The translations under genes were made by a program, and so were the position numbers. From positions 62,001 to 126,000 of the forward strand of contig JAHEBM010000001.1 of assembly GCA_024642245.1 (NCBI GenBank): DNA of 64,000 bases, in the 5' to 3' direction. Below, in pieces: positions 2,596 through 27,287 of the stretch (the stretch's first letter is position 1; every line of letters begins with the position of its first letter). The notes under the pieces were generated by a model. That model saw only the letters and a list, made by a program, of their open reading frames with translations. It ran no database searches and had not been told where the DNA came from. This stretch comes from Haliea sp. (GTDB lineage Bacteria; Pseudomonadota; Gammaproteobacteria; Pseudomonadales; Halieaceae).

Positions 2596-3626
2596 TCCCC
2601 CATTTCACTCGGTTGCTGCAAACCACCCCAATAACCGGCCACATCCAACATCCTGTTGGCGTAGGCCCACTCGTTATCGAACCAGGTGAGCACCTTGACC
2701 AGGCGCTTGCCGCTGACCCGGGTCTGGCTCGCATCGATGATGCTGGAGCGGGCATCGTGGTTGAAATCACAGGAGGCCAGCAGCTCCTCAGTATAGCCCA
2801 GCACGCCGTTGAACCCGCTTTGAGCTGCGTCATGCAATGCGCGATTTATGGCAACGACATCGGTATCCGTGCGGGTATAAACCGTCAGGTCGAGGGCGGA
2901 GACGTTCAGGGTGGGCACTCTCAGGGCCTGGGCGCTAAAACGCCCGGCCATCTCCGGCAGTATTCGCTCAACGCCCTTCGCAAGGCCCGTATCCACCGGG
3001 ATGATCGACTGGGAGGCCGCTCGCGTTTTGCGCAGGTCGGTGTGGTGGTAGGCATCCAGTACCGGTTGGTCATTCATGGCGGAGTGAATGGTGGTAATGG
3101 TGCCACTGTCGATGCCGACCGCCTCGTGCACCGCCTTGATCACCGGCACTATGGCATTGGTGGTGCAGGAGGCGTTCGAAGCGATGCGGTGCTGCGCGCG
3201 CAATTGATGATGATTGACACCATAAACCACCGTGGCGTCGACATCGGCCTCGGCCGGCTGGGAAAACAGCACCTTGCCCGCTCCCTGCTGCAGGTGTAAC
3301 TCGGCGGTAGCCCTGTCGGAGAAGGCACCGGTACATTCCAGAACCATATCCACGCCAAGGTCTCCCCAGGGCAGGTCGCCGATATCCGGGCATCGCAACA
3401 GGGTGACGGTGTCCCCATTCACCTGGATCCGGCGTTCATCACCGGCGAGCGTACCGGCGAATCGGCCATGGGTGGAGTCGTAGCGGGTGAGATGTAAAAC
3501 CGTGCGTGCGTCGGCAAGTTCGTTGATGGCCACCACTTGCAGTGAGGACCGCAAGGGGCTTTCATACAGTGCCCGCAGCACGCTGCGGCCGACCCTGCCG
3601 TAGCCGTTTATCGCCAGTCGCAACAC
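2592..3626 (-). CDS. epd: erythrose-4-phosphate dehydrogenase / type I GAPDH family
   Basis: [65 protein letters not shown]; Epd-like features and location next to pgk/tkt. Confidence 0.85.
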
Positions 3627-25274: not shown

Positions 25275-26129
25275 TCAGTCGACCATCGCGGTCCGCAGTT
25301 TTTTCATGGCGCTTTGTTCAAGCTGGCGGATGCGCTCGGCGGAGACATTATACCTTGCGGCGAGATCATGCAGGGTTGATTTTTCCTCTGCCAACCAGCG
25401 CTGGGCAAGGATATCGCGACTGCGCTCATCGAGTTCGGCCAGCGCCTGGTGCAGGCGCTCTTCGCTGCTCTGCTGCCAGTCGCTCGATTCCGCTGCGAGT
25501 GCGGGATCGGCGCTGTGGTCTTCCAGGTAGTACTGGGGAGCCAGCCAGCCGTCTTCGTCATCGGCATTGAGCGGCGCATCGTAAGCCAGGTCCCGGCTGC
25601 TCAGGCGGCCCTCCATGCGCTGCACTTCCTTCACGTCCACGCCCAACTCGTCGGCCACTGCCCTGGCCTCATCGGCACTGAGCCAGGCCAGGTCTTTCTT
25701 GGCGCTGCGCAGGTTAAAAAACAACTTGCGTTGGGCCTTGGTAGTGGCGACCTTGACGATGCGCCAGTTGCGCAGGATGTACTCGTGCATTTCCGCCTTG
25801 ATCCAGTGCACGGCAAACGACACCAGTCGCACACCCTTTTCGGGGTTGAAGCGCTTGACCGCCTTCATCAGGCCAACGTTGCCTTCCTGGATCAGGTCGG
25901 CTTCCGCCAGGCCATAACCGGAGTAGCTGCGGGCTATGTGAACAACGAAGCGCAGGTGGGACATAACCAGTTCGCGCGCGGCCGCGAGGTTGTCATTGAA
26001 ATACAAATCCTCCGCCAGTTCACGCTCGCGCTCCGCACTCAGTATCGGAATGCTGCTGACGGCCTGGACGTAGGCCGGGAGATTGGCTCCGGGCACCATC
26101 TGGTCGACTGGCTGCAAGCTTTTACTCAT
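25275..26129 (-). CDS. rpoH: heat-shock sigma factor sigma-32
   Basis: [27 protein letters not shown], region 2 [63 protein letters not shown] (RpoH box). Confidence 0.97.
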
Positions 26130-26157
26130 ATTTGACCTCCACGTTAGCCGAGTGATT

Positions 26158-26184
26158 TTAGCACTCTTTGGATTAGAGTGCTAA
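26158..26184. promoter_or_regulatory. CIRCE element (HrcA operator), perfect: TTAGCACTC-TTTGGATTA-GAGTGCTAA
   Basis: Exact match to the CIRCE consensus (9-bp arms, 9-nt spacer), 28 bp upstream of the rpoH start codon. Confidence 0.92.
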
Positions 26185-26199
26185 TAGTGGAAAAGTTCC
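26173..26199 (-). promoter_or_regulatory. sigma-E (RpoE)-like promoter GGAACTT-N15-TCTAA for rpoH
   Basis: Minus strand: -35-like GGAACTT (26193-26199), 15-nt spacer, -10-like TCTAA (26173-26177) lying within the CIRCE. Confidence 0.55.
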
Positions 26200-26288
26200 C
26201 AGCGACATCCATGCCGTGAATAAATATCTTTTAAAATCATATAGTTATTGTCTTGAAATTTCAGGCTTGCCCGGGTCGGCCGGCAGTC

Positions 26289-27287
26289 TCAGCGCGGCTG
26301 GATATCCGCCAGGTGCCGGGCAACGGCGAGCCAGGACCCCGCCAGGCCAAGTAGACCGCCGAGAATAACCAGGTTCAGGCCGCCCATGACACCGAGCCCG
26401 CGTAGCCGGAACTCACTCTGGTAAAGCCCGGCGAGCTCGCTGATAGGCTGGCGCAGAAACCACAGGGACGCCGCAACCAGCACGGCGGCGAAAACACCCC
26501 CGCCCACGCCATACCACAGGCCGGTGTACAGGAAAGGCCGGCGCACAAAGGCGTTGCTCCCTCCCACCAGCTTGACGATAACAATCTCCTCCCGCCGACT
26601 CTCGATGGCCAACCGAATCGTGTTACCCAGAATCAACAACACCCCCACCACCAACAGTCCACCCACAGCCAACACCAGCCTTCGGCTCAGCTCCATGAGG
26701 CTGTTTAGCCGCTGCAGCCACTCCATATCGAGCACCGCCTGGGCCACGTCCGGGTAGGCCTGCAGGTCCTCCCGCAGGGCGAGGGCGGCGGACTGCGCGG
26801 CAGCGCCGGCGGGGGATACCAGGATGAGGTGTGGCAGCGGATTGCTGTCCAGGCTGGCCAGTACATCGGCAAAACCGGACAGGGTCCGGAATTCATCGAG
26901 GGCCTCTTCCCGGGATACAAAGCGGGTTTCCGCCACGTCGGGCCGCTCATCCAGTTCTGCCTGCAGCTGCCGGGCCCGGTCGTCGCTCACGCCATCCTGG
27001 AGAAACAGCGATATCTGGGCCGGGCTATCCCAGCTGGAGCTCAACTGGCTGACGTTGTCCAGCGCCACATTCAGACCCGTGGGCAGGGCGAGCGCGATGC
27101 CGATCACCAGCCACGTCATGACACTTGATACGGGATTATCGATTACCCTGGTCATACTGTCGGCGGCGGACAGGCGATGGTGCTGAAGCCAGGCCTGGTA
27201 CCGGTCACGCAAGCCCGTGCGGCTCTGGCTGGCGCCCTCCCGGCGGCCGCCGGGCACACTGCGAGTGGCCTTCAGGCGCCCGATCAC
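26289..27287 (-). CDS. ftsX: cell division protein FtsX
   Basis: Hydrophobic ABC permease, TM after SMTRVIDNPVSSVMTWLVIGIALALP, VKLVGGSNAFVRRPFLYTG; overlaps ftsE. Confidence 0.93.
   Translation of the reverse strand: MIGRLKATRSVPGGRREGASQSRTGLRDRYQAWLQHHRLSAADSMTRVIDNPVSSVMTWLVIGIALALPTGLNVALDNVSQLSSSWDSPAQISLFLQDGVSDDRARQLQAELDERPDVAETRFVSREEALDEFRTLSGFADVLASLDSNPLPHLILVSPAGAAAQSAALALREDLQAYPDVAQAVLDMEWLQRLNSLMELSRRLVLAVGGLLVVGVLLILGNTIRLAIESRREEIVIVKLVGGSNAFVRRPFLYTGLWYGVGGGVFAAVLVAASLWFLRQPISELAGLYQSEFRLRGLGVMGGLNLVILGGLLGLAGSWLAVARHLADIQPR

Follow-up and report, generated by a model that had tools for sequence, protein, structure and literature searches.

Textbook accounts of the bacterial heat-shock response describe two circuits, a positive one operated by sigma32 and a negative one operated by HrcA, and control by HrcA through CIRCE is known for the groESL and hrcA-grpE-dnaK operons. 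The locus considered here carries CIRCE close before rpoH, the sigma32 gene. This raises the question of whether the activator of one circuit is governed by the repressor of the other, and how such an operator would be placed relative to the promoters of rpoH.

In the window, the whole 64,000-nt stretch of DNA that was analysed, the sequence TTAGCACTC-TTTGGATTA-GAGTGCTAA at 26158-26184 matches CIRCE at 18 of 18 positions, with 9-bp arms, a 9-bp spacer and no mismatch. It was the sole match in the window when up to three mismatches were tolerated, and 100 dinucleotide shuffles yielded none. The ATG of rpoH follows after a gap of exactly 28 bases (26157-26130); the initial annotation, which had placed an exact CIRCE 28 bp before the sigma-32 start, was right in both coordinates and spacing. 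The site lies in the promoter or leader region of a heat-shock gene and is kept in relatives, as detailed below. The identity of RpoH was confirmed with NCBIfam profiles (TIGR02392 at 393 bits against a cut-off of 323, with NF005143 also matched), and the gene order ftsE-ftsX-rpoH is common to the window and E. coli K-12. The features of the region are as follows.

25275-26129, minus strand: rpoH (sigma-32), the putative controlled gene; TIGR02392 393 bits, NF005143 421 bits.
26136-26140, minus strand: GGAGG, ribosome-binding site of rpoH, from the sequence.
26155-26163, minus strand: TGCTAAAAT, extended -10 of a probable sigma70 promoter, made of the CIRCE right arm plus AAT; a promoter-like match.
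26158-26184, no strand: CIRCE, predicted HrcA operator; exact match, present in all readable family upstreams and tracking hrcA in the order.
26173-26177, minus strand: TCTAA, -10 of the sigmaE-type promoter at N15 spacing; its TC closes the left arm of CIRCE.
26193-26199, minus strand: GGAACTT, -35 of the sigmaE-type rpoH promoter; offset of 14-16 from the CIRCE start in most relatives.
26236-26264, minus strand: CTGAAA-N17-TATGAT, weak second sigma70-like candidate upstream of CIRCE, from a consensus scan only.
26289-27287, minus strand: ftsX, upstream gene of the ftsE-ftsX-rpoH cluster; ORF of 332 aa.

The assembly (3.66 Mb in 133 contigs, 81% complete) was searched for hrcA and for further CIRCE copies, two checks proposed with the initial annotation. 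A full-length hrcA was found beside grpE (TIGR00331 319 bits, PF01628 202 bits). Within three mismatches, the genome-wide scan returned two CIRCE sites only, the perfect one at rpoH and one with a single mismatch at groESL, 89 bp before groES (ATG at L002:1617); no CIRCE within three mismatches was present at the hrcA-grpE locus in this whole-assembly scan. As predicted from these sites, the HrcA regulon visible in the 81%-complete assembly is groESL plus rpoH. A sigma32-like promoter, CTTGAAA/CCCCAAT, lies beside the groESL CIRCE.

The rpoE gene was also present (TIGR02939 316 bits, above cut-off), followed by two genes (L154:2124-2714 and 2722-3549) that are rseA/rseB-like by position alone. 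Upstream of rpoE, at L154:1344-1420, two sigmaE-type motifs were observed, GGAACTT-N16-TCCCA and GAACTT-N16-TCTAC, and this pairing suggests autoregulation of rpoE.

Within the family Halieaceae, 115 of 120 genomes yielded rpoH, and in 113 cases the region upstream of the gene was readable. Every one of the 113 contained CIRCE with 17 or 18 of 18 positions matched, usually 27-57 bases and in a few cases 76-177 bases from the start codon, while the upstream flanks showed almost no conservation apart from the promoter motif. Conservation of the motif before the rpoH genes of relatives, a further check attached to the initial annotation, was thus complete among the readable family upstreams. Neither refuting condition within reach of sequence analysis, a genome without hrcA or close relatives without the motif at rpoH, was observed. 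The hrcA gene was detected in 115 of 120 family genomes and in 79 of the 79 near-complete ones, and 14 named Halieaceae contigs, including Haliea, Parahaliea and Chromatocurvus, share the CIRCE-rpoH layout.

A further motif, [CT]TGA[TA], was enriched about 60-51 bases before CIRCE in the family (44 of 109, versus 1-11 in other bins); it lies in a stretch of the rpoH upstreams, -60 to -30, that is rich in A and T. It is possibly another promoter or an UP-like element.

The initial interpretation of a link between HrcA and rpoH is supported by these data; what it had overlooked is that the arms of the palindrome overlap two promoters, one of sigmaE type and one with an extended -10. Read along the rpoH strand, the promoter region is GGAACTTTTCCACTATTAGCACTCTAATCCAAAGAGTGCTAAAATC. 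Its GGAACTT-N15-TCTAA (26199-26173) agrees with the sigmaE-type consensus GGAACTT, N15-16, TCnnA. GAAC at the fixed offset occurred in 67.6% of 225 flanks, versus a mean of 0.8% elsewhere, and in 0 of 30 groESL CIRCE flanks at the same offset. Genome-wide, the motif had two matches versus three in a reversed control; it is not rare and this count is uninformative, so only the conserved position speaks for it.

By the scoring used, a good sigmaE motif was missing in roughly one in five of the 113 family members, and many of these belong to genus g12. The g12 upstreams without GGAACTT were L268, L270, L272, L274-L277, L279, L280, L284 and L289, and many of these carried a TGAAA/GTAAA...GGTAnTTTT-like stretch just before CIRCE. 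In g12, the sigmaE type may have given way to another promoter.

On the other side of the palindrome, TGCTAAAAT (26163-26155) agrees with the TGnTAnnnT consensus of an extended -10 element. Its final T, at +3 after CIRCE, was present in 113 of 113 family rpoH copies versus 1 of 30 groESL CIRCE copies, and in 102 of 112 rpoH copies among the matches listed in a broad scan. This T is not explained by the operator, because it is outside CIRCE and is absent at groESL. Family members without GGAACTT keep both CIRCE and the T, which suggests that the extended -10 alone would be enough to keep the operator in place.

The relation between operator and repressor was followed across the order, sampled as one genome per family with at least 15 of 18 CIRCE positions required at rpoH. 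CIRCE was observed at rpoH in 13 of 14 genomes with hrcA, the upstream region of the fourteenth being cut by a contig end, and in 1 of 25 without hrcA. The co-occurrence was significant by Fisher's test (p = 2.3e-8), a value that ignores phylogeny and leaves independent losses of hrcA and CIRCE uncounted, because the rpoH tree, with one supported pair only, was too poorly resolved. The sigmaE-type motif stood at the fixed offset in all 14 CIRCE-positive order genomes, and the sigmaE-type promoter was often kept in genomes without hrcA (13 of the 25 CIRCE-minus genomes). In three hrcA-minus genomes (G351, G383 and G386), an intact sigmaE-type motif was followed at the expected offset by a CIRCE-like sequence of 13/18; tentatively, given these low scores, the operator may have decayed there while the promoter stayed.

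In the class, at least 33 of 232 genomes showed a strict CIRCE-rpoH pattern, a lower bound since this pattern misses longer leaders and mismatched sites. It was found in 32 of 173 genomes with hrcA versus 1 of 59 without (p = 8e-4), and only about a fifth of the hrcA-positive class genomes fitted it. Taken together, the presence of hrcA, the conservation in the family (113/113) and the distribution in the order (13/14 versus 1/25) strongly support, at the level of sequence, the original proposal that rpoH is under HrcA control.

Two genomes departed from this pattern. The order genome G366 (L215), 96% complete, has a CIRCE of 17/18 at rpoH with hrcA undetected, and the class genome G237, 97% complete, has the strict CIRCE-rpoH pattern, likewise with hrcA undetected; the gene may have been lost recently or lie on a missing contig, or a different regulator may act there. 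Two RpoH-like genes each were observed in G352 and G354, the second being far more distant (48% and 55% identical, respectively, to RpoH of the window).

Our preferred reading, to which a probability of roughly 0.8 is assigned, is that CIRCE functions as an HrcA operator within the promoter region of rpoH, where one dimer would block both promoters under feedback from GroE. A narrower action of HrcA, confined to the extended -10 promoter or exerted as a roadblock to transcription arriving from upstream, with the sigmaE motif incidental or immune to HrcA, is considered unlikely. It would fit the part of the family that keeps CIRCE and TGCTAnnnT without a good GGAACTT, the T at +3 in 84% of broad-set copies without GAAC (among the matches listed) and the candidate sigma70-like site upstream of CIRCE. 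However, GGAACTT is found at a fixed offset in most relatives, including all 14 CIRCE-positive order genomes, the TC of its -10 lies inside CIRCE, and a sigmaE promoter is documented at rpoH elsewhere, namely the sigmaE-dependent P3 of E. coli (PMC8103513) and the P3 of P. aeruginosa, which is under AlgU (PMC13104619).

As RNA, CIRCE forms a stable hairpin (z = -2.1 for the region), and the inverted repeat could conceivably work at that level, as a thermometer or stability element in the 5' leader or as a terminator of ftsX. Yet no T-run follows the repeat on either strand, its arms are invariant in sequence with no compensatory double changes, and it tracks the presence of hrcA; a terminator or RNA-hairpin function was rejected on these grounds. 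The predicted starts, moreover, are inside or beyond CIRCE, and therefore most transcripts would not contain the whole of it, which leaves the RNA reading highly improbable. Least probable of all is a site that arose by chance or survives as a fossil and has no function in this organism. The near-intact CIRCE retained by the hrcA-minus G366 would speak for it, but none is expected from the shuffles, the site persists in every readable family upstream amid almost unconserved flanks, and hrcA is full length in this genome.

Returning to HrcA as repressor of both promoters, we infer HrcA binding, the use of each promoter, the repression of both and feedback by GroE, the last being carried over from other species. 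In C. jejuni, GroE enhances HrcA binding and HrcA activity is lost with heat, and the same paper also cites B. subtilis and Chlamydia on HrcA (PMC8533110). In the proposed circuit, free GroE would keep HrcA active, and rpoH and groESL would be held down. CIRCE lies over both -10 elements, so that active HrcA should deny RNA polymerase access to either; a single dimer would suffice for the sigmaE-type and the sigma70-type promoter. When GroE is drawn off by unfolded protein, or HrcA loses its activity in the heat, the repressor would leave CIRCE and free rpoH and groESL together; transcription of rpoH would be stronger if sigmaE is also free, its strength being set by sigmaE.

RpoH would then drive groESL transcription from the sigma32 promoter beside the groESL CIRCE, and the new GroE would re-arm HrcA, giving a feed-forward loop closed by negative feedback. 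Spare chaperone capacity would in this way very probably switch off rpoH, the main heat-shock activator, via HrcA. Since the arms overlap the sigmaE-type and extended -10 promoters, sigmaE and HrcA inputs would meet at rpoH.

A broad scan of GTDB species genomes looked for CIRCE standing ahead of a start codon and the HLR motif of RpoH. It returned at least 120 contigs, at least 117 of them with an rpoH match; three without an rpoH match were set aside. Among the matches listed were Rhodocyclales, Nitrosomonadales, Burkholderiales, Hydrogenophilales, Methylococcales, Chromatiales, Cellvibrionales, Kangiella and Desulfuromonadia. The CIRCE-rpoH layout is common, occurring in many beta- and gammaproteobacteria and some deltaproteobacteria. 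In a Kangiella sp. single-cell genome (L145), rpoH is preceded by two CIRCE-like repeats in tandem: the first, TTAGCACTC-ATATAGACA-AAGTGCTAA, is degenerate, and the second, a few bases further on, is a perfect CIRCE.

With at least 117 rpoH contigs from many families showing it, the layout is therefore not peculiar to this genome, and the initial view of the HrcA-RpoH link as exceptional had to be given up. The link had also been predicted before: Rodionov et al. 2004 report CIRCE upstream of Geobacter sulfurreducens rpoH as a computational prediction (PMC545781). In the open literature, CIRCE at rpoH was found only as this Geobacter prediction, a mention for beta- or gammaproteobacteria elsewhere being possible, and no account of promoters built into CIRCE arms was found there.

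If the preferred reading is true, the sigma32 and HrcA circuits would be wired in series in many Proteobacteria, and GroE would feed back on rpoH transcription, not only on sigma32 activity. That CIRCE comes and goes with hrcA offers a natural experiment on the dismantling of a regulon, and cultured Halieaceae make the proposal testable; Parahaliea mediterranea and Chromatocurvus halotolerans, for instance, share the layout. A wider proposal is more tentative, its chances being put at somewhat below even: that one palindrome would serve as operator and as the -10 core of two promoters, that this rpoH gate would read envelope stress (sigmaE) and chaperonin occupancy (HrcA-GroE), that the composite would be widespread and possibly old in beta- and gammaproteobacteria, and that rpoH control of the E. 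coli type would be a remnant after hrcA loss.

Compared with known HrcA/CIRCE operons, the operator is the same and a groESL copy is present in this genome; unlike in the control of groESL and hrcA-grpE-dnaK, the target here is a sigma-factor gene. G. sulfurreducens resembles the present case in having a perfect TTAGCACTC-N9-GAGTGCTAA close before rpoH (-51) in addition to groESL sites, but it is one deltaproteobacterium, and the accessible part of that paper describes no embedded sigmaE or extended -10 promoter (PMC545781). Thermodesulfobacteriota CIRCE-rpoH loci, among the matches listed, differ in being without the GAAC element and mostly without T at +3. The rpoH upstream region of E. coli is without a CIRCE-like sequence (best 10/18), and the control search gave no hrcA match in that species, whereas its P3, GAACTT-N16-TCTGA at -120 and downstream of ftsX, matches the sigmaE-type motif of the window.
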